Source: a virus
Strand: one strand, 5' to 3'
DNA: 39,205 nucleotides
Virus record (IMG/VR): IMGVR_UViG_3300042691_026482
Coordinates: 1 to 39,205 of that record
Part shown: in pieces, positions 53-39,205 of the stretch
Layout of the letters: each line of letters starts with the position of its first letter
Numbering within the stretch: the stretch's first letter is position 1
Program-made: the position numbers and the translations under genes
Notes under the pieces: model-generated
Database searches by the model: none
Seen by the model: only the letters and a program-made list of their open reading frames with translations
What the model was told of the DNA's origin: nothing

Positions 53-268
53 ATGCCCATCATGGAGGCCACCGCCAGCAACCTGAACGACCTGATCTCG
101 ATCGCCGGCAGCCAGACGCTGGCGACCGTCACCACGGTGTCGACGGTGTCGACCGTGTCGACGTTGACCAACCAGGCGCAGATCGGCGGCATCGCCGCCA
201 ACGACTACATGCCGGCGCTGCTGCACCTGCAGGCCGACAACCTCCGCCGCAACATCTCGGTGACCTGA
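53..268 (+). CDS. Small tail-region protein of unknown function
   Basis: A 71-residue protein that opens the distal tail operon; the next gene begins 2 bases after its stop. The first half carries the repeated VST triplets (about residues 27-37), coded by 9-base tandem units near 137-164, and the C-terminal half is more ordinary (IGGIAANDYMP, then LRRNIS). Small proteins with this kind of composition are common in front of phage tail fibre or propeller genes, but I know no function. The frame is open back to base 2, so the true start could lie upstream of the window; ATG at 53 or 62 are the starts seen here. No clear ribosome binding site precedes either. A TGA at 3-5 in another frame may be the end of the preceding gene. 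Confidence 0.7.
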   Translation: MPIMEATASNLNDLISIAGSQTLATVTTVSTVSTVSTLTNQAQIGGIAANDYMPALLHLQADNLRRNISVT

Positions 269-8729: not shown

Positions 8730-9346
8730 TGGCACAGACCTGGACGACCCCGGCCGGCACCGATCCGGCCAATCTCGCAATCAAAGTCGCTCTGCCCGAC
8801 CGCGACGAGTCGCTGCGCTCGCTGTTCTCCGGCGCGACTGCGCCGACGAGTCCCGTCGCCTACCAGCTGTGGGCCGACACGGCGACGAAGACCCTGAAGC
8901 AGCGGAACGCCGCCAACTCGGCGTGGGTCGAGCTGCTTCCGCTCGCCGACTCGGTGCGGCTGCAGCTGGCGTTCCGCCTGTCCGGCGCGCTGGCCGCCGA
9001 GGTGCTGCAGATCCCAATGCCGATGGCCGGCCGGGTCGAACGGGTCCAGGTCGTCGGCAGCGTCGCGACGTCGACGTCCGCCGCCGGCACCAAGGAGTGG
9101 ACCTTCATGTTGCGCAACCACACCCAGGCCGTCGACCTGTTCTCGGCGACGCCGTCGACGGCGACGGTCGTGTCTGGCGTCGGCGGCGGCGAGCTGGCGG
9201 CGAACGCGACCTACAACCTGTCGGCCAACCAGAACCAGGCCGTCGCGGCAGGCGACGTGCTGCGGCTGACCATCGCCAGCGTCGGCTCGCCGACGGCCGT
9301 CGCCGACGTGTCGATCCGCGTCAACATCACGCTGACCGGCGTCTGA
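8729..9346 (+). CDS. Tail fibre-like virion protein
   Basis: A 205-residue protein starting at ATG 8729, overlapping the stop of the J-like gene (TGATG). The N-terminus 'AQTWTTPAGTDPAN' followed by a short 'YQLWADTATKTLKQRN' motif is typical of the shaft/attachment region of small phage fibre or appendage proteins; the C-terminal half is beta-rich (alternating Val/Thr strands, ending SIRVNITLTGV). There are no cysteines. Its place directly after the host-specificity gene suggests a fibre or fibre-capping role. Assignment is by context and composition only. Confidence 0.75.
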   Translation: MAQTWTTPAGTDPANLAIKVALPDRDESLRSLFSGATAPTSPVAYQLWADTATKTLKQRNAANSAWVELLPLADSVRLQLAFRLSGALAAEVLQIPMPMAGRVERVQVVGSVATSTSAAGTKEWTFMLRNHTQAVDLFSATPSTATVVSGVGGGELAANATYNLSANQNQAVAAGDVLRLTIASVGSPTAVADVSIRVNITLTGV

Positions 9347-9963
9347 TGACCGCCGTCGACCAGAGCGGGCGGACCGTGGCCGCCGGCGAGACGTACCTGC
9401 TCGCCGGCATCGTGCGACGCATCGAAGCGGCCAACCGCGTCGCCATCGTGACCGGTAGCGGTGAGCGTCGAGCGCTGCTGCGCGTCGATCCGGCGCAATT
9501 GCTGCGTGTCGACGATCTGATCGTGTCCGACGGCTCGCGCAGTTTCTCGCAGGCGCCGCTGGTCAACGACTCGCCCAAGGCCGACGGCAGCGCGGCGAAC
9601 AAGCTGTACGTCGACACCGAAATTGCCGCCGTCGTCGACGCCGTGTCAGCACTGTTCCAGCCGATCGACGCGACGCTGACGGCACTGGCTGGCCTGACGA
9701 CGACGGCTGACCGCGTGCCGTACTTCACCGCCACCGACACCGCCGCCGTCGCGACGCTGACGTCGTTCGGCCGCTCGCTGATCGACGACGCCAACGCCGC
9801 CGCCGCACGCACGACCCTCGGCCTGACCTCGATCGCCACGCTGGCAGGCGCAGCAAAGGGCGACCTCGCCTACTTCAACGGCACGTCGTGGAGCGTGCTG
9901 CCGATCGGCACGGTGGGACAGGTGCTTACGGTGTCCGCGAGTCTCGACCTCGAATGGGTGTGA
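9346..9963 (+). CDS. Tail fibre-like protein with phage-fibre repeat
   Basis: A 205-residue protein with ATG at 9346 overlapping the upstream TGA. The middle has the 'DSPKADGSAANKLYVDTEIAA' linker and the 'LTALAGLTTTADRVPYFT' segment, both classic pieces of phage tail-fibre shafts; a later 'AAARTTLGLTSIATLAGAA' segment is the matching 'AR..LGL' fibre motif. The C-terminus 'VGQVLTVSASLDLEWV' is the usual ending of such beta-structured fibres. It is probably a trimeric fibre or side appendage. It closes the tail operon. Confidence 0.85.
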   Translation: MTAVDQSGRTVAAGETYLLAGIVRRIEAANRVAIVTGSGERRALLRVDPAQLLRVDDLIVSDGSRSFSQAPLVNDSPKADGSAANKLYVDTEIAAVVDAVSALFQPIDATLTALAGLTTTADRVPYFTATDTAAVATLTSFGRSLIDDANAAAARTTLGLTSIATLAGAAKGDLAYFNGTSWSVLPIGTVGQVLTVSASLDLEWV

Positions 9964-9976
9964 GGGTGCACAGAAC

Positions 9977-10318
9977 ATGACGACCACCACCGCGAACGCG
10001 AATCCCCACCACGACACGCACGAGAAAGTCGCCAAGGTCTTCGATCGCTATTGGCGCGTGCTGAGTGTGCTCATGCCTCTGCTGGTCGTGCCTGCGATCC
10101 AGTGGGGCGTCGGGGTCAACCACGACCTCGAAGATCTCCGCCTGCAGCTGCGCGAGCTGTCCACACGACGGACGCACGAGCAGCAGGCCGCCGCCGACCT
10201 GACCGCCGAGCTGCGCGCGATGCGCGGCCAGCTCGAGCAGTTTCGCATGGACGTCGTCCAACGAATCGCCGTCCTCGAGGCGCGCATCGACATGACCCGA
10301 CCGAAGGAAACACGATGA
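9977..10318 (+). CDS. Membrane-anchored coiled-coil protein (holin or i-spanin candidate)
   Basis: A 113-residue protein: a polar N-terminus (1-28), one hydrophobic segment (about 29-48, VLSVLMPLLVVPAIQ), then a charged helical tail with heptad-like Leu spacing (50-105). One membrane helix plus a periplasmic coiled coil is the plan of inner-membrane spanins, and some holin-associated proteins look alike. It directly follows the fibre genes and overlaps the start of a lipoprotein gene by 4 bases (ATGA), the gene pair expected of an i-spanin/o-spanin module. No sequence motif proves this, so lysis is an inference. Confidence 0.65.
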   Translation: MTTTTANANPHHDTHEKVAKVFDRYWRVLSVLMPLLVVPAIQWGVGVNHDLEDLRLQLRELSTRRTHEQQAAADLTAELRAMRGQLEQFRMDVVQRIAVLEARIDMTRPKETR

Positions 10319-23851: not shown

Positions 23852-25713
23852 CCGACCTGCAGCTCTACCTCGAGGAAGCCGACGCGCTGCGGCCGCCGGA
23901 GTCGCTGACGCCGACGCAGTGGGCCGACCGTTTCCGCTACCTGGACCCGCTGACGACTTCGGCCGGCGGCCGCTACTCGTCGGAGCTGACGCCGTACGCG
24001 CGCGAGTGGATGGACTGCGCCGGCTGCGGCTGGGTGCGCCAGGTGTCGATCGTCGCCGGCACGCAGATCGGCAAGACCGAGACGCTGAACAACGTCCTCG
24101 GGTACGCGATAGCGCAGGACCCAGGGCCGGCAATGTTCGTCGTTCCGCGCACGGTCGATATCACGATGGCGTCGCAGCGCCGCATCGTGCCGATGATCGA
24201 CGCGACGCCGGCGCTACGCGCCGAGCGAACCGACGCCGCGCACGACGAGAAGACTCGCGAGATCGTCTTTAAGCGCTCGGTGCTCTACCTGCGCTCGTCG
24301 CAATCGCCGGCCGATCTGGCCAGCGTGCCTGTCCGCTACCTGTTTGCCGACGAGGTCGACAAGTACCCGAAGTGGTCCGGGAAAGAGGCCGCGCCGCTCG
24401 ACCTGGCGCGCGAGCGCCAGCGCACGTTCTGGAACTCGACGTGCTACGTCGTCAGCACGCCGACGACGCGCGACGGCACGATCTGGCGCGAGTGGGAGGA
24501 CGGAGACCGCCGGCGCTACTACGTGCCCTGCCCGCACTGCGAAGCGTTTCAGATCATCGAGTGGCGCAACGTGAAGTGGCCGGAGCACGTTCGCACAGCG
24601 AAGGACGCGCGCCGCGAGCGCGTCGCGTGGTTGCTGTGCGCTCACTGTCACCAGCCGATCGACGATGCCGCCAAGCGCGGCATGTTGGCGCGCGGCGTCT
24701 GGGTGCCTGACGGCGTCGCCGTGCAGGACTGGATCGCCGGCGCGCGTGACCGTGACCGCGTCGACCATCGCAGCTACCACCTGTGGGCGGGATACTCGCC
24801 GTGGCTGACCTGGTGGCAGCTCGTCGCGCAGTTCCTCGCGAGCAAGGACGACCCAGCGCGCCTGCAGAACTGGGTGAACTCGTGGCTGGCCGAGGTCTGG
24901 GAGGAGAAAATCGAGGCGCCTGCGATCGACGCCGTGCAGTCCGCCATCGTGCCGGGCTTCCACATGGGCGCCGCGTCGGTCCCTGCCGGCGTGATGGTCG
25001 CGACCGGTGGGGCCGACGTGCAGAAGGACGGCATCTTCTTCGTCGTGCGCGGCTGGGGCGTCGACGAGGAAAGCTGGTTGCTCGCCGCCGGCAAGGTCGC
25101 GACGTTCGTCGAGCTCGAGGACGTGTTCGCGCGCAACACGTGGGCCCGGCGTGGATCGGTCGGCGTCCGCTGCGCCGTGGTCGACTCCCGCTACCGCCGC
25201 GACGAGGTGCTCGAGCTGCACCGCCGTCGGCCGACAATCCGACTCGGCGTCGGCGTCGAGCGCGACGGCCCGATCGACTTCGGCACCAACAAGCTGGAGC
25301 GACACCCGCGCACCGGCGCGCCGCTGGCGAACTCGGTGCTGATCTGGTCGCTGAGCGTCGGCCGGTTCAAGGACTACGTCGCCGGCAGGATGCAGAACCC
25401 AGCGACCTGGCACCTGCCCGAAGACATCCCGGACGGCTATGCCACGCAGGTGACCAGCGAACACAAGGTGCGCGTGCGCAGCGGCGGCCGCGAGCGCGAG
25501 CGCTGGGTCGTCAAGCCTGGCAGCTCGGCGAACCACTACTGGGATGCCGAGGTCTACGCCGCCGCCGCGGCGAAGATGATCCGCGTCGAGTTGCTCCGCC
25601 GCCGACCAGGCGAACCCGATGCGCCCGCACCCACGCCGCCGGCGACGCCGAGGCCGCCGAGACCTGATCGCCATCGGCAAGGGCCGCCCCGGTTTCCGAG
25701 GCTCAGCAGATGA
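23848..25713 (+). CDS. terL: Terminase large subunit, GpA family
   Basis: A 621-residue packaging motor. The ATPase part has 'GTQIGKTE' (71-78, Walker A-like) and 'LFADEVD' (165-171, Walker B). The middle carries two CxxC pairs ('CPHCEAF' and 'CAHCHQP') typical of GpA-type terminases. The nuclease part begins near 'GGADVQKDGIFFVVRGWG' (about 388-405) with the acidic residue, followed by 'VVDSRYRRDEV'. It cuts concatemers and drives DNA into the prohead. The last ~35 residues are a Pro-rich tail. Start GTG 23848. Confidence 0.92.
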   Translation: MTDLQLYLEEADALRPPESLTPTQWADRFRYLDPLTTSAGGRYSSELTPYAREWMDCAGCGWVRQVSIVAGTQIGKTETLNNVLGYAIAQDPGPAMFVVPRTVDITMASQRRIVPMIDATPALRAERTDAAHDEKTREIVFKRSVLYLRSSQSPADLASVPVRYLFADEVDKYPKWSGKEAAPLDLARERQRTFWNSTCYVVSTPTTRDGTIWREWEDGDRRRYYVPCPHCEAFQIIEWRNVKWPEHVRTAKDARRERVAWLLCAHCHQPIDDAAKRGMLARGVWVPDGVAVQDWIAGARDRDRVDHRSYHLWAGYSPWLTWWQLVAQFLASKDDPARLQNWVNSWLAEVWEEKIEAPAIDAVQSAIVPGFHMGAASVPAGVMVATGGADVQKDGIFFVVRGWGVDEESWLLAAGKVATFVELEDVFARNTWARRGSVGVRCAVVDSRYRRDEVLELHRRRPTIRLGVGVERDGPIDFGTNKLERHPRTGAPLANSVLIWSLSVGRFKDYVAGRMQNPATWHLPEDIPDGYATQVTSEHKVRVRSGGRERERWVVKPGSSANHYWDAEVYAAAAAKMIRVELLRRRPGEPDAPAPTPPATPRPPRPDRHRQGPPRFPRLSR

Positions 25714-25952
25714 CGCGCCACGCAGAACTCGACGACATGCTTCCGGCCGTGCCGTTTTGCCCGGTGCGGTGTCCGCGCTGCGGCGCAGCCAAGCCGTTCA
25801 CGTACGGGCAGAAGGGCCGAATTCGCTATCACCGCTGCCAGGAGTGCAACTGCCGCTACAGGTCGTTGGAACTGCGCCGCGACCAGCTGCAGACGTTCGA
25901 CCCACCCGCAGCACGGTCAGCAGCGCAGAATCAAGGCCGCGCATCCGACTAG
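25710..25952 (+). CDS. Small zinc-ribbon protein in the packaging region
   Basis: An 80-residue protein with ATG at 25710 overlapping the terL stop. Residues ~17-50 hold a zinc ribbon, 'CPVRCPRCG' and 'HRCQECNCRYRS', with basic residues on the loops; the C-terminus is a short charged helix. Zinc-ribbon proteins of this size sit near many phage structural operons (Ogr-like activators are one type), but a late-gene activator role is not shown here. Confidence 0.65.
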   Translation: MTRHAELDDMLPAVPFCPVRCPRCGAAKPFTYGQKGRIRYHRCQECNCRYRSLELRRDQLQTFDPPAARSAAQNQGRASD

Positions 25953-25973: not shown

Positions 25974-26183
25974 GTGGATACCAACGCGCAGGCAGCGGAT
26001 GCGATGGAGGCGGCGGCGCAGGAAGCACTGCAGGCCGACAGCCTCGACGTGCAGGCCTACACGGTCAACGGTCGCACCGTGCAGGGTCGCTCGTTGCGTG
26101 AATTGATCGAGCTGCACAAGTACGCGACGCAGCTGAAGCAGCGCGCGAACGGCATCCGGCGCACGAGGGTGTCGTTCCGGTGA
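25974..26183 (+). CDS. gpW-like head-tail joining protein
   Basis: A 69-residue protein with GTG start at 25974. The sequence 'VQAYTVNGRTVQGRSLRELIELHKYATQLKQR' is the gpW pattern: a short beta hairpin after a helix, then the 'R...L.EL......L' helix. Lambda gpW finishes the head and joins it to the tail. It overlaps the portal GTG by 4 bases, as in lambda (W then B). Confidence 0.85.
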   Translation: MDTNAQAADAMEAAAQEALQADSLDVQAYTVNGRTVQGRSLRELIELHKYATQLKQRANGIRRTRVSFR

Positions 26184-27868
26184 AGAGTCGCGCCGCGCCG
26201 CCAGGCTTCGTCGCGCGCCTGATCGACCAGGCCGTCGCCGCCGTGTCCCCACAGTGGGCCATGCGGCGCCAGGCGGCCCGCAACGTGCTGCAGCGAAGCG
26301 TGCCCGGCACGCGCCTGCGCTACGACGCCGCCCGCATGGATCGCGTCCGCAGCGTGCCGCGCAGCGGGTCGGCCGACGGCGATCTGCTGCCCGACCTGCG
26401 CGTGCTGCGCGAGAAGTCGCGCTCGCTGGTGCGCGACGACGCGCACGCCGCTGCGGCGATCCGCGTGCTGGTCGACAACGTCGTCGGCGACGGCATCAGC
26501 CCGCAGAGCAACCTGCGGCCGGAGACTTCGGGCCTGACGCAAGCGCAGTGCGACGACTGGAACGCCAGCGCCGAGCAGCTGTGGCGCGAGTCGTGCGCCG
26601 TCGCCGCCGACGCCAACGACGTCGACGACTTCGCCGCGCTGACGCGCCTCGTCTACCGCACCAGGCTCGTCGACGGCGAGGCATTGGCGCACCGCCTGGT
26701 CGTTCCGGGCCGCGGCCCGATCGCCACCTGCTATGAGCTGATCGACGTCGACCGCCTCGAGGACCCCGCTTCACCTGGCAACGTGCGCTACGGCGTCGAG
26801 CTCGGCGACCGCGGCGAGCCGGTCGCGTACTGGCTGCTGCCGCACCACCCGGACGACCTTCGGTTCACGACGGCGCAAGCGCTGCGGCCGACCAACCCGG
26901 AGCGGTTCGTGCGGCGGAACGGCGACTTCTGGAACGTGCTGCACGTCTACCGGCGCGAGCGCCCTGGGCAGTCGCGCGGTCTGCCGCTGCTGACGCCGGC
27001 GATGCCGCTATTCGAGCACCTGCACCACTACCTCGACTCGGAGATCATCGCCGCGCGCGCGAACGCGAACGTCGCGATGTTCATCCGCAGGCCGCTCGAC
27101 CCAGCAGCCGACCCCGACGTTCGTCCGGTCGACGACGACGCAGGACGAGACGGCGAGCTCGTCTACCACGAGACGCTCGAGCCCGGCACGATCGAGTACC
27201 TCAACGAAGGCGAGGAGATCCAGCCGTTCTTGCCGGCGCGGCCCGGCTCGTCGTTCGACGCGTTCGTGACGCGAATCCTGCGCGCGATCTGCGCGGCGCT
27301 CGACCTTCCGTACGAGATGGTCGCGAAGGACTTCGGCGGCATGAACTACAGCAGCGCGCGCGTCGCGTTGCTCGAGGCGCGCCGAGGCTTCGAGATCGAG
27401 CAGAACGCACTGGTCGGAACCTGGCTGAAGCCGGTCTGGGAGAACATGGTGCGCGAGGCGATCGCCGTCGGCGCTCTGCCCACCTACGCCGCCGCGATGC
27501 GGCGCAACCCGCGCGCGTTCCTGACGGCGCGGTGGATTCGTCCGGCGTGGGGATGGGTCGACCCGGTGAAGGAGATCGACTCCGCACGCCAGGCCATCGC
27601 CGCCAACCTCTCGACGCCGGACATCGAGGCGAGTCGCGCCGGCCTGGACGCGGTCGAGGTGCTCGAAGCCCGCGCGCGGTTCCTGGTGGCTGCGCGCGAG
27701 ATCGAAAGCCGCAACGGGCTCGCGCCTGGCAGCCTGACCGCCCAGCCGACGGCCACAGCCGGCGCCGCGCCGGCGGCGCCGCCGGCTGACAAACCGCACG
27801 CCGACGACGCCGACGACGCCGAGGACGCGCCCGACGAGCAGCCGCAGGAGCAGCAGGACACCCCATGA
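26180..27868 (+). CDS. Portal protein, lambda gpB family
   Basis: A 562-residue protein, start GTG 26180. It has the lambda-type portal signature: 'AAIRVLVDNVVGDGISPQS' near the N-terminus, 'RTRLVDGEALAHRLVV', 'YELIDVDRLEDP', 'FEHLHHYLDSEIIAARANANV', and 'LPYEMVAKDFGGMNYSSARVALLE' in the core. The portal dodecamer forms the DNA channel. The C-terminal ~90 residues are an Ala/Pro/acidic tail. Confidence 0.92.
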   Translation: MKSRAAPPGFVARLIDQAVAAVSPQWAMRRQAARNVLQRSVPGTRLRYDAARMDRVRSVPRSGSADGDLLPDLRVLREKSRSLVRDDAHAAAAIRVLVDNVVGDGISPQSNLRPETSGLTQAQCDDWNASAEQLWRESCAVAADANDVDDFAALTRLVYRTRLVDGEALAHRLVVPGRGPIATCYELIDVDRLEDPASPGNVRYGVELGDRGEPVAYWLLPHHPDDLRFTTAQALRPTNPERFVRRNGDFWNVLHVYRRERPGQSRGLPLLTPAMPLFEHLHHYLDSEIIAARANANVAMFIRRPLDPAADPDVRPVDDDAGRDGELVYHETLEPGTIEYLNEGEEIQPFLPARPGSSFDAFVTRILRAICAALDLPYEMVAKDFGGMNYSSARVALLEARRGFEIEQNALVGTWLKPVWENMVREAIAVGALPTYAAAMRRNPRAFLTARWIRPAWGWVDPVKEIDSARQAIAANLSTPDIEASRAGLDAVEVLEARARFLVAAREIESRNGLAPGSLTAQPTATAGAAPAAPPADKPHADDADDAEDAPDEQPQEQQDTP

Positions 27869-28935
27869 CCGCCCCCAAGCTCAACGTACCGGCCAACGCG
27901 TGCGTGTTCGCGCTCGAGGCACCCGACCACCTGACGCTGACGCCGGCGGCCGACAAGGCTCCCGCGCGTTTCGACGTCGTCGCCAACTCGGGCAAGCCGA
28001 TCCAGGGGCACTGGTTCTGGGGCAACCTGGGGATCGAGCTCGCCGGCATCAAGGCCAAGTCGCGCGTGCCCATCCTGATGGACCACGACCCGACGCAGCG
28101 CATCGGCTACAGCGATGCGCGCGAGATCACCAAGCGCGGCCTGCAGATGCAGGGCGAGTTCTTGCGCAGCTCGGCGCTGGCCGCGCAGGTGCGCAGCGAA
28201 AGCCTGGACGGGTTCCCGTTCGAGGCTTCGGTCAACCTGCGCCCGGTGAAGGTCGAGCGCGTCGCCGAGGGCGAGACCGTCGAGGTCAACGGCTACGAGA
28301 TGACGGGGCCCGGCCACGTCTTCCGCCGTTCCGAGCTGCGCGAGGTCTCGTTCTGCGCGCTCGGCGCCGACAGCAACACGTCGGCCGCAGCTCTCGCCCA
28401 GGAGGCAGAGCTGGCGGTCGAGCTTTCCCAACACGACACCATGACCCCGACCGACACCAAGGGCGCGACCGCCGCGCCGTCTCCCGCCCCGGCGGCCCCG
28501 GCCGCCCTGAACGCCGACGCGATCCGCCTCGAGGCCGCCGCGGCCGAGCGCGCGCGAATCCGCGGCATCCGCGAACTGTCGACCAGCGAGCAGGCCGCGC
28601 TCTGCGAGGAGCTCGTCGAGGCCGGCGCGACCATCGAGGCCGCCTCCGTCCGTCTCGCCGCCGACCTCAAGGGCAGGCACGAGGCCATGAAGGCGCAGCT
28701 CGCCGCGAGCAGCGACAAGTCGCTGAGCGCCGGCAACCGCGGCACCGAGAAGCCGGCGGCCACGCCGCTGGACGCCGTCAAGGCGCTGCCGGACGGCCCC
28801 GAGAAGTGGACCAAGCTCTACGAGACCGACCCGCAGGTTCGCGCCGAATGGCACAGCGCGGCCGCGTTCTCGGCGTACCAGGAGTCGCTCGTGCTCGGCA
28901 CGCGCAGCTTCGGCGCGCCGAAGACGGAAGCCTGA
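27865..28935 (+). CDS. Prohead protease with C-terminal scaffold-like domain
   Basis: A 356-residue protein with ATG at 27865. Residues 1-175 match HK97-type prohead proteases: catalytic His74 ('VPILMDHD') and Ser162 ('LREVSFCALGAD'), with 'PFEASVNL' between. After an Ala/Pro linker (about 195-215) the C-terminal part is a long charged helix ('AERARIRGIRELSTSEQ', 'SVRLAADLKG'), as in scaffold domains that are cut away during maturation. Protease and scaffold in one chain is the lambda C/Nu3-like arrangement. Confidence 0.88.
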   Translation: MTAPKLNVPANACVFALEAPDHLTLTPAADKAPARFDVVANSGKPIQGHWFWGNLGIELAGIKAKSRVPILMDHDPTQRIGYSDAREITKRGLQMQGEFLRSSALAAQVRSESLDGFPFEASVNLRPVKVERVAEGETVEVNGYEMTGPGHVFRRSELREVSFCALGADSNTSAAALAQEAELAVELSQHDTMTPTDTKGATAAPSPAPAAPAALNADAIRLEAAAAERARIRGIRELSTSEQAALCEELVEAGATIEAASVRLAADLKGRHEAMKAQLAASSDKSLSAGNRGTEKPAATPLDAVKALPDGPEKWTKLYETDPQVRAEWHSAAAFSAYQESLVLGTRSFGAPKTEA

Positions 28936-28978: not shown

Positions 28979-29917
28979 ATGCCCGTCACCACGACCGCGA
29001 CTCCCCTCACGCTGCGCAACGTGCGCGGCGAGTACTTCCTCGCCCTGAACCAGCAGCTCGGCGCCAGCTGGGCCCGCATGGTCGCGAGCCTCTTCCCGAC
29101 CGACCAGCCGCAGGAGCAGTACCCCTGGCTCGGCGCGTCGCCGAACCTGCGCAAGTGGGAAGGCGAGCGCACCGTCCGCGAGCTGCGGTCGGACACGATC
29201 ACGATCGTGAACGACGACTACGAGACGGGCATCGAGTTCCGTCTGCCGGACCTGCGCCGCGACAAGACTGGCCAGATGATCGGCCGCGTCCGCGACATGG
29301 CGACGCGCGTCGCGATGTTCCCGGAGCGCCTGCTGACCGACCTGCTGGTCGCCAACGGCAACGCGTACGACGGCGTCGCGTACTTCGCCGACAGCCACGC
29401 AGTCGGCTCGAGCGGCACGATCGACAACAACATCGGCACGGGCGACGGCACGGCCGGCGGCGCCGCGCCGACGACGGCGCAGATGTCGGCGAACATCCTG
29501 ACCGCCCTGCAGCGCCTGATGAGCTTCCGCGACGACCAGGGCGAGCCGCTGAACGAGTCGGCGCGCCAGTTCGCGCTGATGGCGCCGCCGAACCTGTGGG
29601 GCCCGGCCGTCGCCGCCATCCAGAGCGACTTCACCTCGGCGTCGGCGTCGAACCCGCTGGCCGAGCTGCGCAGCGTCGGCGTCCAGATCGTGCCGATGGT
29701 CAACGCTCGCCTGACCGCGACGAACACGTTCTACATGTTCCGCACGGACGCCGGCATCCGGCCGTTCATCGTGCAGGAAGAGGGCGTCATGCCCGTCGAG
29801 CTCGGCCCCGACAGCGAGCGCGCGGCCATGACGAACCGCGCCTACTTCGGCCACGGCTGGCGCGGCGGCGCCGGCTACGGCCGCTTCGAGCTCGCCGTCC
29901 GCGTCGCGACGTCGTGA
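28979..29917 (+). CDS. Major capsid protein, Mu gpT-like
   Basis: A 312-residue protein. It follows the Mu-like major head protein gpT: 'WARMVASLFPTDQPQEQYPWLG', 'RELRSDTITIVNDDYETGIEF' with 'LRRDKTGQMIG', a 'LLTDLLVANGNAYDGVAYFADSH' region and the C-terminal 'RPFIVQEEGV...YFGHGWRGGAGYG'. It is a HK97-fold protein. This gpT-type shell is combined with a lambda-type terminase and portal, so the head module is a mosaic. Confidence 0.9.
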   Translation: MPVTTTATPLTLRNVRGEYFLALNQQLGASWARMVASLFPTDQPQEQYPWLGASPNLRKWEGERTVRELRSDTITIVNDDYETGIEFRLPDLRRDKTGQMIGRVRDMATRVAMFPERLLTDLLVANGNAYDGVAYFADSHAVGSSGTIDNNIGTGDGTAGGAAPTTAQMSANILTALQRLMSFRDDQGEPLNESARQFALMAPPNLWGPAVAAIQSDFTSASASNPLAELRSVGVQIVPMVNARLTATNTFYMFRTDAGIRPFIVQEEGVMPVELGPDSERAAMTNRAYFGHGWRGGAGYGRFELAVRVATS

Positions 29918-29954: not shown

Positions 29955-29987
29955 CTCGACGCCGGGCCTTGCCGCGCCGGCGTCGAG
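29955..29987 (+). terminator. Second perfect hairpin before the decoration gene
   Basis: CTCGACGCCGG (29955-29965) and CCGGCGTCGAG (29977-29987) pair over 11 bp with an 11-base loop, only 6 bases after the first hairpin. The pair forms a tandem structured spacer between the capsid and decoration genes. Confidence 0.5.
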
Positions 29988-30031
29988 CAGCAGCGCGGCA
30001 ACCGAACACCTACACCAGACCCGAACGAACC

Positions 30032-30457
30032 ATGGCCAACCTGACCGCACCCCTGCCGCGCACCTTCCGCGGCATCCGAGAGATGACCACCCTCCCCGCT
30101 TCCGGCGCGATCTTCCAGGGCGCGCTCGTCGAGGAGGACGCCAACGGCCGCCTGCAGAACGCCACCGGCGCCGGCACGACCTTCGTCGGCGTCGCGATGC
30201 AGAGCGCGACCGCCCAGGGCGAGAACGTCGAAGTCGCCCAGCAAGCGACCGTGCTGCTGACGGTCGCCAAGGCGACGAACTGGGCGCTGACCGACGTCGG
30301 CGTGCTGGTCTACGCCAGCGACGGCGGCGACGGCTTCACGCTGACCAGCACGAGCAACCAGTCGATCGGCAAGGTCGCCGAGATCGTGTCTGGCTTGGGC
30401 ACCGGCTCGGCGCAGGTCTGGGTCCGCATCGAGGGCGCGGCGGTCCGCTCGATCTGA
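30032..30457 (+). CDS. Capsid decoration (cement) protein
   Basis: A 141-residue protein starting at ATG 30032 in the usual gpD position, right after the capsid gene. The pattern 'PRTFRGIREMTTLPASGAIFQGALV..' with alternating hydrophobic strands and the 'VGVAMQSATAQGENVEVA' and 'VGVLVYASDGG' blocks fits the beta-rich trimeric cement proteins that brace the shell. Assigned by context and strand pattern. Overlaps the next ATG. Confidence 0.8.
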   Translation: MANLTAPLPRTFRGIREMTTLPASGAIFQGALVEEDANGRLQNATGAGTTFVGVAMQSATAQGENVEVAQQATVLLTVAKATNWALTDVGVLVYASDGGDGFTLTSTSNQSIGKVAEIVSGLGTGSAQVWVRIEGAAVRSI

Positions 30458-30687: not shown

Positions 30688-30718
30688 CGCGCCAAGGACG
30701 CCTGGCGCAATGCACGCT

Positions 30719-30752
30719 CGCCCCTCGTCGCGCTGACACGTGACGAGGGGCG
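30719..30752 (+). terminator. Hairpin before the glycanase gene
   Basis: CGCCCCTCGTC (30719-30729) and GACGAGGGGCG (30742-30752) pair over 11 bp. It lies in the ~100-base gap between the small head gene and the glycanase-like gene and has no T-tract. It may separate the glycanase gene from the head operon. Confidence 0.55.
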
Positions 30753-30786
30753 GCACCCTTGACGGCCACAGACCAGCAAGACACCC

Positions 30787-32970
30787 GTGACCATCTTCCG
30801 CGACCTTGGACCGACGGGCACGCCGAGTTCCGCGTCGGTCACGTGGTCCCCGTCTCTGTACCTGACCGACCGCAGCAGCTCCCGGTTTCGCGTGCAGGTC
30901 AGCCAGGGCAGCCCAGCCTGGAACCACGTCTACGGGTTTGGCCGCGTCGGCACGTCAACCGCGCGCGGCCCGCAGCTCTACGGCAACCAGTGCTGGTCCG
31001 CCGGGGCCAGCGTCGAGGCATCGTGGACGGGATTCTCGGCCGACACGACTACGACGGTGACGGTCAGCCTGACCGGAGGCGAGACCATCTCCAGCTTCAC
31101 CATCTACCCAAAGACGCTGGCGGTGCAGCCTCAGCTCGTGTCGGGGCAGCTCGTCTTGCAGGTGCCTCCTGACTCGCGAATGCTGATCGAGGTCAACGGC
31201 AACCGCAAGGACACGCTATGCGTGTTCGTAGATACTGTTGCTGCAGAGACGACGCCTTACACGCTAGGCGACACGATCCTGGTCGACAGCGGCAACATCG
31301 GGACGCTGAGCACGCTGGGCAACACCCTGCGCGATGCATCCGAGCCGCTGGTCGTCATCTTCCCGCCGGGAGTCTGGCAGCTGCCGACAACGGCAGGCAG
31401 CAGCACGGCACCAGCACGGACCCCGGCAATCACTCGCGAAAAGGACGGGCAGCTGTGGCTGGTGCGTCCGTTCACCAAGATTGTCCTGCAGCGAGGAGCG
31501 TGGGTCATCGGTTCGCTCGACATGCGACAGGGCAACGACATCGAAGTGACCGGGCCCGGTGTGTTGAGTGGTGAGTGGGCTACCTGGTCCGACATGCTGC
31601 AGAAGCTGCAAGGCAACCAGAACGCGCACCAGGCACCTGGACAATTCCTCACGTTCAACCAGCAAGTGGCGTGGTCGATGTTCTGTGGCACGACGTGGGA
31701 CGACGGCGACGAGGACTTCCCTAGCCTGGCTTGTTTGTTCCCGACGATCGTTGGCTCGCCGTTCTATCTGCAGAGCTCTGCTTTCAACAGTTACGACCGC
31801 GTAAAGGTTATTAGCCACTGGCTGTTCAACTGCGACGGTTTTAACCCAGTTTTAGACCCGGCGACGCAGCAGCGCACAGTCAACAATAGCTTCGCAATGA
31901 CGGGAGACGATGCGCTGCACCTCGGTGGGTACAACTGGGGCACGACGACAATCCAAGACACTCATGCAATAGCCTACGCTGCTGCGCCGATCCTCGTCGC
32001 GTACGATTCTTACATACCCAGCAGCACGCCGGGATTGCGGCAGATGACGAACTGCACAGCGCAGTCGAACGCTCCGCTGGCTGAGTGGGGCTTCGATCTG
32101 CACACAGGCGTTCCGCATAACTGGTCGCCATCCGAAGCCACGTGGCTCAGCGTCCATACCTATGCCGCGCCGGCGGCATTCACTGCGTGCATCATCAAAC
32201 TATGGCTCGACGGGTCGGACTCTGACCCGCTCGGCTGGGGCATGTTCGACGTTCGCATCGACAACCTGCGAGTCGAGGGGACCATCCCTTTTGCGCTTTG
32301 GTCGATCGAGAACTGTCTCTATCCGTTTGGCTCGACCACCGCGACCAACGACCAGCCGCTACAAGACGACAAGGCCGGATCTGCTGCGGGCATCCAACTG
32401 AAGAACATCACGACCGAGACAGTGCCTCGCTACCGGTCCCGGCTGCTCGGCCGCGATCGCAGCAACACGCCGCACGACATCACGGTCGAGAACGTCACGC
32501 TCGGCGGTCACCGCCTGACGACGGCAAACTGGAACCAGTACGTTCTGCAAAACGGACCGCCGTACAACGTGTTCGTCGACGGCCACGCCGTGGATGACCT
32601 CGTCCCAGCCGCCGATGGACTGGGAAGGCGCTTGCGGGCCGATGCTCGCAAGATCACCACCACCAGACACCATGGCGAGCTCGTCACCTACCTGTCGAGC
32701 GTGCCCGGCGCTCCTGGCCGCAACCTACGCGCGATCGTCCAGCGGAACCGGCTGCAAGCGCTCGGCGCCGAAAGAGAAATCGGGGCCGCCGTGCTTGAGG
32801 CGCTGGTATGGCTGCCATTCGACGTTGACCCGGCGCGCGGCGTCGTCGCAGTTGCCATCGGCGACGAGTTGGTCTGCGTGCTGCAAGAAGGTGCGACGGC
32901 GATTCGCTGCCGGATCGTCGAGACCGTCAGCGAAGACGCCGGCGGCTTCTTGGTCAGGGTGCAACGGTGA
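30787..32970 (+). CDS. Beta-helix glycanase-like protein (GH49/GH28-like) fused to a connector-like domain
   Basis: A 727-residue protein with GTG start. Residues 1-150 are a beta-sandwich ending 'LQVPPDSRMLIEVNG', then a right-handed beta-helix: 'IFPPGVWQLP' (~193), 'VTGPGVLSGEW' (~254), and 'SFAMTGDDALHLGG' (~372), with the Asp pair typical of GH28/GH49-type polysaccharide hydrolases. Residues 602-727 are different: 'DGLGRRLRADARKITTTRHHGELVTYLSS' and 'RAIVQRNRLQALGAE' resemble the small head-tail connector genes that usually follow the capsid genes. An in-frame GTG at 32590 could be that domain's old start. Base composition of the glycanase part is less GC-rich, suggesting transfer. The likely substrate is a surface polysaccharide. 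Confidence 0.8.
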   Translation: MTIFRDLGPTGTPSSASVTWSPSLYLTDRSSSRFRVQVSQGSPAWNHVYGFGRVGTSTARGPQLYGNQCWSAGASVEASWTGFSADTTTTVTVSLTGGETISSFTIYPKTLAVQPQLVSGQLVLQVPPDSRMLIEVNGNRKDTLCVFVDTVAAETTPYTLGDTILVDSGNIGTLSTLGNTLRDASEPLVVIFPPGVWQLPTTAGSSTAPARTPAITREKDGQLWLVRPFTKIVLQRGAWVIGSLDMRQGNDIEVTGPGVLSGEWATWSDMLQKLQGNQNAHQAPGQFLTFNQQVAWSMFCGTTWDDGDEDFPSLACLFPTIVGSPFYLQSSAFNSYDRVKVISHWLFNCDGFNPVLDPATQQRTVNNSFAMTGDDALHLGGYNWGTTTIQDTHAIAYAAAPILVAYDSYIPSSTPGLRQMTNCTAQSNAPLAEWGFDLHTGVPHNWSPSEATWLSVHTYAAPAAFTACIIKLWLDGSDSDPLGWGMFDVRIDNLRVEGTIPFALWSIENCLYPFGSTTATNDQPLQDDKAGSAAGIQLKNITTETVPRYRSRLLGRDRSNTPHDITVENVTLGGHRLTTANWNQYVLQNGPPYNVFVDGHAVDDLVPAADGLGRRLRADARKITTTRHHGELVTYLSSVPGAPGRNLRAIVQRNRLQALGAEREIGAAVLEALVWLPFDVDPARGVVAVAIGDELVCVLQEGATAIRCRIVETVSEDAGGFLVRVQR

Positions 32971-33725
32971 CGACCATCGGTAGCGAACGCGACGGCATCG
33001 AGTTGCGGCTCGACACGTCGGCACTGTCGGCGGCCTTCACGCTCGGACCGTCGTCGTGTTACTTCTGGCTGCGCACATTCCTGTTCGGCTCGCTGCTGAA
33101 GCACCGCACGTACTGGCTGCGAACGAAGTCGACGAGGTTCGGCAGATCCAAAGACAAGTCGCGCGCCATCAAGGTCTGGAGGATCAACGAAGCACCGTTG
33201 ACGGGCATCCGGCCGAACTGGGTCACCTACCACGTGACGCCGAAGGAGCAGCGCGAGAAGAACGCCGGTCGCGCCGCGGCGCTGCTGCCGACGCTCGCAG
33301 GCGTCGCCGGTGCCGGCTCGATCGTGCTGGACGTGCACCAGACCGGCCGGGACATCCGCACGCCTACGTGGATGGCGATTCCGCTGCGAACCCGCGAGCG
33401 CAGCCCACGGGCTTGGCGCCAGAGGAACCCAGCGAAAGTGCTGGTCGTGGTGCCAGACCGCCGCAACTCCGGCCGACTGTTCCTGGCGGAGCGCATCCGC
33501 TACATGGGCAGGCGCGCGAACGGCGTGCTGCCAAGCGACCCCAAGAAAACCAAGGTCGTGCGCGACAAGCTGCGCCGCCGGTTCCTGCTGCTGAAGTCGG
33601 TCGACATGAAGCCGACGCTGAACTTCTACGAGTCCTGGGATGCGCTCGGACCAGAGCGCGCTCAGGAGTTCTCCCGCATCTCCGACCGCATCCTGAAGGA
33701 CATTGCCCGTGGCAAGCTTGCGTGA
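32967..33725 (+). CDS. Neck/minor tail protein, DUF6441-like
   Basis: A 252-residue protein, GTG start overlapping the upstream stop. It begins with a strand-rich 'GIELRLDTSALSAAFTLG' and has a basic middle ('RTKSTRFGRSKDKSRAIKVW') and a conserved-looking 'IRYMGRRANGVLPSD..' segment; the C-terminus is a helix ('YESWDALGPERAQEFSRISDRILKDIARGK'). In this position it corresponds to lambda gpZ or HK97 gp10-type tail terminator/completion proteins. Family assignment moderate. Confidence 0.7.
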   Translation: MTTIGSERDGIELRLDTSALSAAFTLGPSSCYFWLRTFLFGSLLKHRTYWLRTKSTRFGRSKDKSRAIKVWRINEAPLTGIRPNWVTYHVTPKEQREKNAGRAAALLPTLAGVAGAGSIVLDVHQTGRDIRTPTWMAIPLRTRERSPRAWRQRNPAKVLVVVPDRRNSGRLFLAERIRYMGRRANGVLPSDPKKTKVVRDKLRRRFLLLKSVDMKPTLNFYESWDALGPERAQEFSRISDRILKDIARGKLA

Positions 33726-34161
33726 CCAGATCGCGACCGAGCTCGTCGCACGCCTAGACGCGCTGACCGGATGGGCCGCTACCCTGCGCGGCGGCGACGA
33801 GGTGACGAACGTCGCCGTGCTGGCCATCGTTGCCATCCTGGGCGAAAGCAAGCGGCCACGAGATTCGCTGATGTACGCGTGCACGCTGCAGCTGGGCGTG
33901 CTGATCCGCGGCCGGCACGAGGACGCCGACCCGACGCTCGACGGCTACAATCCGGTGCGCTACATGGATCGATTAGTCGCGACTGCCGAGCGCGCTGTGC
34001 ACGCGTCCCCGTGGCAGAACGAAGCGCTGATATCGATCACCGGGCACACCGTCGATGCAAGCGAAGATCCCAACGTGTTCGAAGCGACTTTGACGCTGAC
34101 CGTCGACTATCGGCACAACTTCGACGACCCGGACCAGTACGCGCCGGGATACGTCCCGTGA
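33709..34161 (+). CDS. Tail terminator-like protein (gpU-type position)
   Basis: A 150-residue protein. I start it at GTG 33709; TTG 33703 is also in frame. It has an amphipathic N-terminal helix ('RDQIATELVARLDALTGW'), then 'RDSLMYACTLQLGVLIRGR', 'YMDRLVATAERAVHASPW' and a final strand 'FEATLTLTVDYRHNFDDPDQY'. This helix-then-strand plan and the position between the gpZ-like and tail tube genes fit a tail terminator. It overlaps the end of the previous gene by 17 bases. Confidence 0.7.
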   Translation: MASLRDQIATELVARLDALTGWAATLRGGDEVTNVAVLAIVAILGESKRPRDSLMYACTLQLGVLIRGRHEDADPTLDGYNPVRYMDRLVATAERAVHASPWQNEALISITGHTVDASEDPNVFEATLTLTVDYRHNFDDPDQYAPGYVP

Positions 34162-34511
34162 CCATTGCGCCGGAGTTTCTGCCGTCGCCCGGACGCGTCA
34201 GCGTCGAGGTGTTGGACACGACGCAGCGGTCTGTCACTTGGCGATCTGGGAAGCTCCTGCGCACCAGGCAGACCGACCCATCGAATCGGCCCAGACGGTG
34301 GGACCTGTCCTACGACAGCTGCAACGGCGCTGTCGCCGACGCGATCCGCCAACACTTTCAGCAGCACAGACTCGCCGACTTCGCTTGGTCGCCGCCGGGG
34401 GCATCATCCCCTGTGCGGGTCATGCATCGCGAGCCTCCGTCGATCGACTGGGACAGCTCGACGACGGCGACCGTCCGCGTCTACCTCGAAGAGCTCCTCG
34501 CGTACGCCTAG
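34158..34511 (+). CDS. Minor tail protein, distal-tail-like fold
   Basis: A 117-residue protein, GTG start overlapping the upstream stop. The pattern 'VTWRSGKLLRTRQ', 'RRWDLSYDSC', 'IRQHFQQHRLADFAWSPPG' and the final 'VRVYLEELLAYA' matches the C-terminal domain of the large tail protein at 1873-3996 in layout, and the small distal-tail fold of lambda gpM/DUF2460. Its place before the tube gene is unusual for such a protein. The role is inferred. Confidence 0.7.
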   Translation: MTIAPEFLPSPGRVSVEVLDTTQRSVTWRSGKLLRTRQTDPSNRPRRWDLSYDSCNGAVADAIRQHFQQHRLADFAWSPPGASSPVRVMHREPPSIDWDSSTTATVRVYLEELLAYA

Positions 34512-34525
34512 CCAACCACCCCAAC

Positions 34526-35977
34526 ATGCCTCTGACTCGCAAGCAGCAGATTCTTGCCAAGATCGAAACCAGCTTAGGCGTCGACGCCACGCCTGGCGCT
34601 TCCGACGCCGTGCTCGTCTACGATCCGACGATCGCCGACGACGTCGCCACGACGGATCGCGTGCCAGCCGGCTCGACGCTGTCGCGGGACTTCGTGCCGA
34701 TCGGCCGCAAGTCGCGCACCATCACGTTTACCAGCGATCTGCGCGGGTCGGCCGACACCTCGATTCCAGTCACGGTGCCGGAGTGGGGCACCCTGCTGAC
34801 GGCCAGCGCCTACAAGTTCGTGCAGCCTGTCACCATCCCGGTGTCGGCGCTGACGGGGACCGGATTTCAGGTCGGCGAGATCGTGCAGAAGGGCTCGACC
34901 ATCCGCGGAATCGTCATCGGTCTGTTCGTCGGCGGTGTGCTGACGTCGCGTCTGACCGCCTCCGGCAACGTGATCGTCTGCCCGATCCAAGGCACGTGGA
35001 CCAGCTCCGGCACGGTCACCGGCGAAAGCAGCGGCACCTCGGCGACGATCGGAACCGTCGTCAACTACGCCGGCCTGTCGTACGTGCCGACCAGCCAGAA
35101 TCTGATCAACGTCACCACCGGCGCGTGGTCTCCTTTGGTGCCGGCAGTGGGCGACGTCCTGCGCGTGCGCAGCGGGACGGTCGTCGTCGGATTCGTCCAG
35201 GTCATCGCGGACAACTCCGCCGGCGCGTTCACGAACCTGGACGTCACACTGCTGTCGGGAGGCATCGCCAACGGCAACGTGCTGGCGACCGGCGACACGG
35301 TCGGCAATACGGCCACGATCAACGCGTCGCCGACGATGATCCGCACGCCGTCGCTGACCATCCGGCACAACCTCGACGGCCGCCAGCGCGGCCTGGTCGG
35401 GGCTCGCGGCGACTTCGAATTGCGCGGCGAGGCCGGCGGGCCGATGACCTTCAACTGGACGTTCACCGGAGACCCAGGCACCAGCGTCGACGCGCTGCCG
35501 GTGGCGACCGCCGGCCTGAGCAGCATCCGCCCGCCACGACTGCTTGGCGCGATAGCCGCCTACGGACGGACCGTCAACGTGCCCAACGGAGACACGGCCG
35601 TCGACTTCGTGCGCCTGCCGACGAAGTCGGTCGGCCTGCAGGCCGGCAACACCATCTCCCCCAACCTCGACGCCAACTCCGCCGGCGGGTCGACCGGCGC
35701 CAACGTCACCGACCGCGACCCGCAGCTGTCCGCCACGGTCGACCAGATCCACAGCGCGTTCGACTGGGAGAGCTTCCGCGACAATGCGCTTGCCGTCCGC
35801 ATGGCGATTCTGGCCGGCACCACGCCGGGCCAGATTTGCGGCTTCGTCGCGCCGAACTGCCAAGTGCTCGAGGTGGCCAACTCGGACGCCGACGGCGTCG
35901 CCGCGTGGGACCTCAACATGCGGCCGCGGCGCGTCCTCGAGGGCGGCGAAGACGAGATCGTCATCTTCCAACTCTGA
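34526..35977 (+). CDS. Major tail tube protein with inserted domain
   Basis: A 483-residue protein starting ATG 34526. The N-terminal ('RKQQILAKIETSLGVDATPGASDAVLVYDP', 'SRDFVPIGRKSRTITFTSDLRG') and C-terminal ('SIRPPRLLGAIAAYGRTVNVPNG', 'FDWESFRDNALAVRMAILAGT') parts match major tail proteins of siphoviruses. Residues ~110-270 are a Val/Thr/Gly-rich insert with alternating strands, making the protein much longer than most tube proteins; similar inserts form knobs outside the tube. It precedes the tail chaperone genes, as in lambda (V, then G and T). Confidence 0.85.
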   Translation: MPLTRKQQILAKIETSLGVDATPGASDAVLVYDPTIADDVATTDRVPAGSTLSRDFVPIGRKSRTITFTSDLRGSADTSIPVTVPEWGTLLTASAYKFVQPVTIPVSALTGTGFQVGEIVQKGSTIRGIVIGLFVGGVLTSRLTASGNVIVCPIQGTWTSSGTVTGESSGTSATIGTVVNYAGLSYVPTSQNLINVTTGAWSPLVPAVGDVLRVRSGTVVVGFVQVIADNSAGAFTNLDVTLLSGGIANGNVLATGDTVGNTATINASPTMIRTPSLTIRHNLDGRQRGLVGARGDFELRGEAGGPMTFNWTFTGDPGTSVDALPVATAGLSSIRPPRLLGAIAAYGRTVNVPNGDTAVDFVRLPTKSVGLQAGNTISPNLDANSAGGSTGANVTDRDPQLSATVDQIHSAFDWESFRDNALAVRMAILAGTTPGQICGFVAPNCQVLEVANSDADGVAAWDLNMRPRRVLEGGEDEIVIFQL

Positions 35978-36758: not shown

Positions 36759-38813
36759 ATGGCCGCCGTTGAAAAGCGCGTGCTCGAGATCCTGGCCAAA
36801 GTCACCGACCAGGCCAGTCGACCGCTGCTGGCGATCGGTCAGGGCGTCAAGAAGGCGTTCGGCGACGGCGCGCGGCAGGGCGTCGAGTTCGCCAAGTCGA
36901 TCGTCTCAGTCCGAACCGCGGTGACGGCACTGGTCGGCGGCTTCGCTGCGTTCCGCGGCGGCCAGTTCGTCAACGGCATCGCCGCCAGCGTCGACGAGCT
37001 GGCGAAGCTGGCGCGCGGCACGGGCTCGACGGTCGACCGCCTGCAGACGCTGCAGAACGCGTTCAAGCTGTCCGACATCGAGGGCGACCGGTTCCGGGCG
37101 CTGCTGGCCAGTCTGACGAAGTCGGTCGGAACGGCGCTGACCGATGGCACGAGCAAGGCCGCGAAGCAGCTCGGGCAGCTCGGCCTCACGTTCGAGGATC
37201 TGCGCACCTCCGACCCGGTGAAGCTGTTCGACCGTCTCGCCGGCAGCTTGGAGCGCTTCACCACGCCGCAGGAGAAGGCCGCGGCCATCGTCGAGATCTT
37301 CCCGAAGATGGCCGGCGAGGTCGAGCTGCTCGTCGACGTGCTCGGCCAGGGGCAGGCGAGCTTCCGCAACCTCGTCGCGACGGCGGAGTTCTTCGGCGGC
37401 ACGCTGACGAAGGAGGCGACCGACAGCGTGGTTCGGTTCAACGGCGCCATGGACCTGCTGAAGCTGTCGATCGACCGCGTCGGCCGCTCCGCCACCGTGG
37501 CGATTGCCGATCGCCTAGCGCCGGTGATCGAGCGCATCGCAACGTTCGTCGCCCAGAACGGCGACCGGATCGGCGACGCGATCGGCCAACTGGTCGCCAG
37601 CATCTCGCAGTTGGTACTGCTGGTGTCGGCGGCGTTCATTCGCTTGGCGGCACTCCTGCAAAGCAACGGCGAACGGATCATCGAGACGATCGAATCGATC
37701 TGGGTCGTCGGTCAGCCACTGGGCAAGCTGTTTCGCGACTTGTTCGACGCGCGGTCGATCGTGCCAGGCGCGCGCGCGTTGCGCGACGAGATGGAGCAGG
37801 TCGCCAACCAGGTGGCCAGCGCGCGCACCGAGACGACGCGACTGATGCAGGTCCGCGACCAGATGGCGCGGCTGCCGGGCGAGTTCGGGGCCGAGCAGCA
37901 GGCCCAGATTGCGCGCCAGATCGAGGAGACCGAACGGCAGCGCCTGACCAACTACGAGCGCCTGCTCGATCTGCAGGAGCAGTTCAACCAAGCGCAGCAG
38001 CGCGGCGGCGGTGCGACAAGTGGCGACGAGGTCGGCCGGCAGATGCGAGCGGCCGAGCTGCGCCAGACGGCCGCGACGCTCGGCTCGTTGGCCAACTTCG
38101 ACAGCCTGCCGAGCCCGCCGACCGACCTCGCTCCGATCGTCAAGGCACTGTTCGGTGCCGACGGCGTCGCCGGCGTCGAGCAGAAAACCCGGACGTTTAT
38201 CGACGGCGTCTCTGACGGTCTGGACCGTGTCGCGCAGCGGTGGACAGACTTCGGCGCCGCCGGCGAGGAGGCCGCGATCCGGATCGTCGACGGCGGCCTG
38301 AACGGCCTGACCGACGCGTTCGCCGACATCGTCACCGGGCAGAAGTCGGCGAAGGAAGCGTTCCGCGACCTCGCGAAGACCATGCTCGCCGAGCTGGCGC
38401 GCATCATCGCGAAGCTGCTGATCATGCGCACGCTGCAGATGTTCCTCGGCCCGAGCGCCGGCGTCGGCGCGACGTTCGAGACTGGCGGCGTCTACCCCGG
38501 CGAGATGCAGGGCACGGTGCCGTTCCGCAAGTTCGCGATGGGCGGCGTCGTCAAGCGTCCGACGCTCGCGCTGTTCGGCGAGGGCTCGGCGAGTCGCGGC
38601 GAAGCGTTCGTGCCGCTGCCCGACGGTCGCCGCATCCCGGTCGCGCTGTCCGGTGGCGGCGGGTCGACGATGAACATCACGATCCAGGCCATGGACGGCG
38701 CCGACGTGACGCGCGTACTGCTGCAGAACCGCGGCACGCTGCGCGCGGTCTGGCAGCACGACGTCTCGCGCGTGCGCGCGGTGCGGCAGAACGTCGCGGG
38801 GGCGGCCCGGTGA
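36759..38813 (+). CDS. Tail tape measure protein
   Basis: A 684-residue protein starting ATG 36759. It has long helical stretches, a hydrophobic segment (about 270-300, 'ISQLVLLVSAAFIRLAALLQ'), coiled-coil regions (about 345-420), and a C-terminal region typical of tape measures ('SAKEAFRDLAKTMLAELARIIAKLL', 'FGEGSASRGEAFVPLPDGRRIPVAL'). Its length is modest, suggesting a fairly short tail; length sets the tail length. Placed after the GT chaperone as usual. Confidence 0.9.
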   Translation: MAAVEKRVLEILAKVTDQASRPLLAIGQGVKKAFGDGARQGVEFAKSIVSVRTAVTALVGGFAAFRGGQFVNGIAASVDELAKLARGTGSTVDRLQTLQNAFKLSDIEGDRFRALLASLTKSVGTALTDGTSKAAKQLGQLGLTFEDLRTSDPVKLFDRLAGSLERFTTPQEKAAAIVEIFPKMAGEVELLVDVLGQGQASFRNLVATAEFFGGTLTKEATDSVVRFNGAMDLLKLSIDRVGRSATVAIADRLAPVIERIATFVAQNGDRIGDAIGQLVASISQLVLLVSAAFIRLAALLQSNGERIIETIESIWVVGQPLGKLFRDLFDARSIVPGARALRDEMEQVANQVASARTETTRLMQVRDQMARLPGEFGAEQQAQIARQIEETERQRLTNYERLLDLQEQFNQAQQRGGGATSGDEVGRQMRAAELRQTAATLGSLANFDSLPSPPTDLAPIVKALFGADGVAGVEQKTRTFIDGVSDGLDRVAQRWTDFGAAGEEAAIRIVDGGLNGLTDAFADIVTGQKSAKEAFRDLAKTMLAELARIIAKLLIMRTLQMFLGPSAGVGATFETGGVYPGEMQGTVPFRKFAMGGVVKRPTLALFGEGSASRGEAFVPLPDGRRIPVALSGGGGSTMNITIQAMDGADVTRVLLQNRGTLRAVWQHDVSRVRAVRQNVAGAAR

Positions 38814-38827
38814 CCACAGGAGACCCA

Positions 38828-39205
38828 ATGCAGGCCGACACGATGCGGGCGCCGCGGGCGCGTTTCTCGATCCAGTGCCTCGACGCCGCCGGCAACGAGC
38901 GGTGGACCGAGACCGTCGACAACCTGGTGCTGAACGCCGGCAAGACGGAGATCGTCGACAAGTTCCTGAAGGCCGCAAGCTACACGGCCTCGTGGTTCCT
39001 GCTGCTGAAGGGCACGGGCACGATCGCCGCCGGCGACACGCTGGCGACGCACGCAGGCTGGACGGAGCTCCAGCCGTATGCCGGCAGCAACCGCCCGGCG
39101 ATCACCTGGGGCACGACCTCGGCCGGCAGCAACACGTCGACGACCGTCGCTGTCTCGATCAACGCGACGGCCACCGTCGCCGGCGCCGGCATCTGCAACG
39201 TGCAG
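38828..39205 (+). CDS. Tail protein, C-terminus cut by window end
   Basis: ATG 38828 with AGGAG 8 bases upstream; 126 codons read to the last base with no stop. It begins 'MQADTMRAPRARFSIQCLDAAG' and continues with 'GKTEIVDKFLKAASYTASWFLLLKG' and alternating strands rich in Thr, Ala and Gly. Proteins with this pattern are common small beta-structured phage tail proteins of ~150 residues, so perhaps 25-50 residues are missing. Follows the tape measure, like the distal tail genes at the start of the window. Confidence 0.75.
   Translation, partial: MQADTMRAPRARFSIQCLDAAGNERWTETVDNLVLNAGKTEIVDKFLKAASYTASWFLLLKGTGTIAAGDTLATHAGWTELQPYAGSNRPAITWGTTSAGSNTSTTVAVSINATATVAGAGICNVQ

Follow-up and report, generated by a model that had tools for sequence, protein, structure and literature searches.

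In the window, the 39,205-nucleotide stretch of viral DNA analysed here, a gene at positions 30787-32970 (plus strand) joins a glycanase-like N-terminal part with a GH49-type fold in frame to a C-terminal domain, and the gene lies in the neck module between the capsid and tail completion genes. It is probable that the product is a neck-anchored glycanase, in which the C-terminus would act as a connector and the outward-facing N-terminus would cut host glycan. The frame is open from a GTG start through 727 amino acids. That a hydrolase-like part is fused in frame to a C-terminal domain had been proposed from the letters alone (the sequence-only reading), and the comparison with other virus contigs bears this out. 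The gene is unchanged in contig L001 and in the partial copy carried by L003, and it is kept whole both in L002, a clearly different virus, and in L015, from a contig that had been assigned to a Phycisphaerales MAG by binning, whose proteins are 56% (over 741 columns) and 55% identical to that of the window, respectively. The gene order around the fusion is common to the window, L002 and L015.

Changes between the window and its relatives are enriched at codon position 3 in the hydrolase part, across the junction and in the last 126 residues alike, with dN/dS about 0.4-0.5. Given that the changes fall mostly at third positions in both halves and at the junction, the frame is translated as one and not open by chance, and together with the conserved gene order this indicated that the fusion is a real and maintained protein. 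Any single contig taken alone could be a chimera, and a stop codon could have been lost between two neighbouring genes, but the presence of the same frame in the separate records L001, L002, L003 and L015 and the purifying selection that spans the junction rule out both, so that an artefact of this kind has practically no chance of being the explanation. Between the window and L002 the fusion, at its 56% identity, diverged much more than the major capsid protein (92%), the tail terminator (87%) and the tape measure protein (83%). The fusion thus appears to outpace the surrounding structural genes, as expected for a host-facing part.

The neighbouring genes place the fusion in the neck module. 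Upstream are the portal protein (26180-27868, plus strand; PF05136, E = 2.6e-90; phrog_21), a head maturation protease (27865-28935) within the head module and ahead of the capsid gene, a Mu gpT-like major capsid protein (28979-29917, plus strand; PF10124, E = 2.1e-30; phrog_371) and a cement/decoration-like head protein (29969-30457, plus strand; PF09956, E = 4e-7; phrog_1731), followed by a gene of 76 amino acids. Downstream, the start of a gene for a 252-aa neck-region protein (32967-33725, plus strand; 78% identical in L002 and L015) overlaps the stop codon of the fusion. This protein occupies the place of lambda Z; it has no family match, and a profile comparison with Z/Neck1 gave no match. 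It is followed by a tail terminator-like protein (33703-34161, plus strand), which corresponds to positions 7320-7775 of L002, where the copy matches the tail terminator family phrog_4204 (E = 0.0045), by a probable major tail protein assigned by position alone (34469-35977, plus strand; 72% identical in L002, no family match) and by the tape measure protein (36759-38813, plus strand; PF09718, phrog_2854 and others). The order of capsid, cement, 76-aa protein, fusion, 252-aa protein, terminator and probable major tail protein parallels E, FI, FII, Z, U and V of lambda, and the fusion takes by gene order the place of FII. The L- and J-like genes of the tail tip are found elsewhere in the window (3998-8729). 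The earlier suggestion that the hydrolase sits in the neck module rather than in the fibre region therefore holds in the relatives as well: L002 and L015 also have the entire chain between capsid and terminator, and neither carries it in the fibre region.

A gpW-like adaptor between terminase and portal was considered and rejected, as the small gene between the large terminase and the portal (25710-25952), in the place of gpW in lambda, resembles a zinc-ribbon protein (a sub-threshold match). The two ends of the window (1-265 and 38710-39205) both match parts of a single ORF in L002 and L021, the intervening stretch of about 120 residues being absent, and the window therefore probably represents almost all of a circularly permuted genome of about 39.6 kb.

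The hydrolase-like domain comprises residues 1-600 (30787-32586, plus strand). An AlphaFold2 prediction from two sequences only was useless (pLDDT 32), but with distant relatives added the alignment grew to 12 sequences, and the resulting model has a pLDDT of mostly 75-94 in this domain (pTM 0.71). In the model a beta-sandwich at about residues 30-150 is followed by a right-handed beta-helix at about 154-600, the plan that had been read from the sequence. When the model was compared with solved structures, the best matches, which extend over residues 4-600, were isopullulanase (3WWG/1WMR) and dextranases (6NZS, 1OGM), all of the GH49 type, with Z scores of 23.9-25.2 and rmsd values of 2.9-3.4, and Foldseek agreed with the GH49 matches (E from 1e-11 to 1e-14). 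The GH28 polygalacturonases came next (Z = 18.6) and aligned only from about residue 154. Identity to the GH49 enzymes is only 16-19%, and the Pfam scores stayed below their cut-offs (PF17433, 16.3 bits, E = 0.008, cut-off 21.3 bits; PF03718, 13.8 bits, E = 0.06, cut-off 27 bits), so that the domain is better named GH49-like than a GH49 member. Even with E allowed up to 10, searches of PDB sequences with the single sequence and with profiles did not retrieve a GH49 enzyme, and the assignment therefore rests on structure and motif. A PF17433 search of 119 genomes gave no match anywhere, with the controls equally silent, and is thus uninformative. The hydrolase domain was not matched in cultured phages.

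The Asp-Asp motif that had been noticed in the sequence is present as D374-D375 (31906-31911, plus strand; motif G-D-D-A) and is invariant in all 12 aligned domains, down to 26% identity. A third residue, D350 (31834-31836, plus strand; motif N-C-D-G-F), would be the first Asp of a putative catalytic triad, judged by motif and conservation. The catalytic residues of the GH49 enzyme Dex49A are Asp376, 395 and 396 (PMC6723167). The window has the same x-D-G...D-D pattern, with a spacing of 24-25 residues as against about 19-20 in GH49. Fold and triad pattern together agree with the proposed GH49/GH28-type hydrolase, and the domain is presumably catalytically active. The substrate is perhaps an alpha-glucan, as the GH49 enzymes known so far act on dextran or pullulan.

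It is unlikely, though conceivable, that the fold was instead kept for binding host polysaccharide from the neck, with catalysis weakened or lost. The position of D350 is occupied by Asn in the L029/L037 group, which fits such a loss, and carbohydrate-binding modules on phage particles have precedents in the accessories that R4C carries at several tail sites (PMC10276861) and in the carbohydrate-binding domains that lactococcal neck passage proteins can bear (PMC10684548). Against this, D350 is kept in 10 of the 12 sequences (the window included) and the Asp pair in every one of them, at 26-57% identity, and such conservation would be unusual for a pure lectin.

More distant fusions were obtained by scanning virus contigs with a profile of four sequences. 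Seeding the scan with neck fusions biases the share of neck fusions among its results, though it does not affect the finding that there are several partner families. The C-terminal partner is the head-tail adaptor Ad1 (PHROG 477; PF20557 DnaT_2) in L020, L028, L029, L030 and L032-L039. Both phrog_477 (E = 4e-33, 5e-40 and 2e-33) and PF20557 match in the first three, PF20557 matches the C-terminal part of L030, and L032-L039 were assigned by near identity rather than by a profile test of their own. In L031 the C-terminal part is a T7 gp11-type tail tubular protein (PF17212, E = 2e-36; phrog_446, E = 3e-46), and the fusion adjoins portal, capsid and phrog_457 tail genes. L027, which shares 47-48% identity with the window in its hydrolase part, has a tail-tubular-like C-terminal part (phrog_394, E = 1.7e-40; phrog_9239 tail tubular, E = 4e-6). 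In the Ad1- and gp11-type fusions the enzyme domain is N-terminal and the neck protein C-terminal, and wherever the position was tested the distant fusions lie downstream of the major capsid gene and upstream of Hc1 or tail/neck (gp12-like) genes; the gene that follows in L020 and L028 is Hc1 (phrog_161). In the two cultured phages that were checked, XM05 and RDJL3, Ad1 is encoded by a stand-alone gene (169 and 191 aa, respectively). Because distant viruses fuse the same enzyme type to other recognisable neck proteins, carrying an enzyme of this sort at the neck and not on tail spikes seems to be a recurrent solution.

The only exception is L040, a 93-kb contig in which the domain lies in the second half of a 1463-aa protein (5910-10301) with neither a recognised neck partner nor a neck module, apparently a different, non-neck use of the domain. 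The adjacent frame in this contig (10301-16429) encodes a 2042-aa protein with an endolysin-type match.

The enzyme half behaves as a cassette. In the tree of the hydrolase domains, some branches of which are long, the grouping is not by connector type: the four types require four changes of partner, and the two gp11-type fusions fall apart. Throughout the hydrolase part the sequences of L037 and L038 match L029 at 92-100% identity, but past a point within the Ad1 part they match L032 at 95-100%, and they do so again (97-99%) about 1.5 kb upstream. From these identities L037 and L038 are recombinants in which a backbone of L032 type has received an L029-type cassette, one crossover falling within or close to the Ad1 part, and by the same comparison the exchanged piece consists of the hydrolase cassette and its upstream neighbour (reaching about 1.2 kb upstream), the neck being otherwise constant. 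Cassette exchange together with fast divergence is, by analogy, the behaviour of host-facing depolymerases.

The C-terminal domain of the window's own protein, about 126-127 residues (32587-32970, plus strand), is a putative neck connector on the basis of gene order and analogy. It is 53-54% identical in L002 and L015, with a length difference of 12 residues among the relatives. For comparison with the stopper fold, a small beta-barrel with a helix at its N-terminus, the model offers a predicted helix (612-621) followed by five strands (647-726) at a pLDDT of only 27-64, and the lists of fold matches were filled by the N-terminal domain. No match was found in Pfam, PHROG or PDB sequences. Comparison by hhalign with lambda FII, phi3LM21 and RcRhea gave no match for a query built from three close sequences (Neff 1.3), nor did a profile comparison with Ad1. 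The idea that the last 126 residues are connector-like was therefore sustained in part: the position in the neck module is kept in the relatives, but the gpFII/Hc1 and Ad1 profiles did not match and the model is of low confidence. A search for phages with the two parts as separate genes had also been proposed; no stand-alone copy of the C-terminal domain, only the fused close relatives, turned up among 50,697 phage records, the virus contigs and 294 genomes of the phylum to which the L015 MAG belongs.

By analogy with lambda, we infer that the domain is a connector ring protein, likely for head closure or an adaptor. Connector identity is the weakest link in the interpretation of the window, where adaptor, stopper and docking domain are all candidates. 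The missing connector profile match and the cement protein among the neighbouring head genes would agree with a small docking or carbohydrate-binding domain that tethers the enzyme to the surface of head or neck in the manner of a decoration protein, another protein making the connection. We regard this as possible though not likely, given that only the 252-aa protein would then be left as a head-closure candidate between capsid and terminator, that the gene order is that of lambda E-FI-FII-Z-U, and that the other identified partners of the hydrolase domain are neck ring proteins. The linker at about residues 605-668 is modelled with very low confidence and, together with the 12-residue variation in the C-terminal part and the head maturation protease encoded in the same module, it leaves some room for a fusion that is cut in the linker, the connector being built in and the free glycanase diffusing off. 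No conserved cleavage motif was identified, however, and the domain is always covalently joined across several partner types, for which there would be no need if the enzyme were meant to be set free. Such a release is accordingly very unlikely, and the enzyme would rather stay attached in the virion.

The neck-anchored glycanase would then work as follows. The C-terminal domain would build the protein into a ring under the portal, the GH49-fold N-terminal domain would project outward from the neck, and several hydrolase copies would surround the head-tail junction, where they could cut host capsule, exopolysaccharide or biofilm glycan as the particle approaches its host or is lodged in the matrix. 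Elsewhere among viruses this type of enzyme is carried by Ad1 or by a gp11-type tail tubular protein, and the enzyme half is exchanged as a cassette. Given that the neck proteins involved are of at least three unrelated kinds (Ad1, the gp11-type protein and the window's domain), with genomes of different tail types and crossovers inside the connector, we are inclined to think that neck-anchored depolymerases form a general and so far unrecognised class of phage host-interaction proteins.

Virion glycanases are usually taken to be tail spikes and fibres. Tailspike depolymerases of the P22, CBA120 TSP2 and KP32gp38 type likewise carry a beta-helix module that degrades polysaccharide in the virion and is exchanged as a cassette among relatives, but they are located on the tail or baseplate, have an N-terminal anchor and are usually trimeric, whereas the window's protein is encoded between capsid and terminator, with the enzyme N-terminal and a C-terminal anchor that would be a neck protein. 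In a 2017 review the characterised depolymerases were all in fibres or spikes, with one exception (PMC5380687). Among GH49 enzymes, Dex49A of Penicillium minioluteum, AoDex KQ11 and the isopullulanase of Aspergillus niger share with the window's domain the beta-sandwich, the beta-helix and the D...DD triad, but the window's domain differs in being joined to a phage structural domain. Closer in location are phi29 gp12 and the pre-neck appendage proteins (Dpo7), which likewise place a beta-helix enzyme at the neck region. Phi29 gp12 was among the structural matches of the window's model (Z = 14), but these are separate appendage proteins with no covalent tie to adaptor or stopper. The neck passage structure proteins of lactococcal phages also bring glycan-related domains to the neck, shuffled between phages as here, and one has a pectin-lyase-like domain (PMC10684548), but that protein is a separate accessory with a conserved N-terminal part and no connector fusion. 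For KP32 gp31, a T7 gp11-type tail tubular protein A and thus of the same partner type as in L027 and L031, saccharide hydrolysis has been reported (PMC5440376, PMC5741709); the protein itself is described as a tail protein with two functions, and the abstracts mention no fused GH49-like domain. In the open-access literature searched we found no report of an adaptor, stopper or tail tubular protein that carries a fused glycanase. Neck-borne glycan enzymes were thus already known as separate proteins, and the covalent fusion to neck proteins appears to be new.

Here, in several neck families that are unrelated to one another, connector proteins essential for assembly would double as enzyme carriers, and ring proteins would tolerate an N-terminal cargo of 600 residues. 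This gives a second genomic place to look for depolymerases, among genes labelled only as adaptor, tail protein or hypothetical, and raises the question of what a phage would gain from glycan cleavage at its neck, such as freeing the head from the matrix or moving through biofilm. If true, the neck would be, besides the tail tip, a site of enzyme-based host adaptation.

Several smaller features of the locus had also been pointed out. The in-frame GTG at 32590, suggested as the start of a separate gene, is present in the window, but both relatives have GTC at this place and no Shine-Dalgarno-like sequence precedes it, which leaves the separate-gene reading unsupported for the present-day gene. 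The in-frame TTG at 32632 of the window is ATG in both relatives and could in principle start a short product. The lower GC content of the hydrolase part was found as described (62.2% for residues 1-600 vs 70-72% in the head genes). Given that the drop is smaller in L002 (66% vs 70-71%) and that the tail genes behind the fusion in the window also have 66-69%, GC content is weak evidence for a recent transfer. The hairpin ahead of the fusion gene, originally placed at 30719-30752, proved real. It spans 30718-30753 (plus strand) with a 15-bp stem and is present in the window and both relatives, with compensatory changes on both sides of the stem in three pairs. A T-run is absent after it, and it may be an element that sets expression or a processing site.

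Contigs L015 and L020 both belong to one Phycisphaerales MAG and represent two unrelated viruses, each with a neck hydrolase fusion, which may reflect a shared host or chance in binning. A 69-residue stretch is common to the tail-region protein at 1-1704 of the window and the hydrolase part of L020 (12460-14751), with 42% identity, and is possibly a small mobile module.
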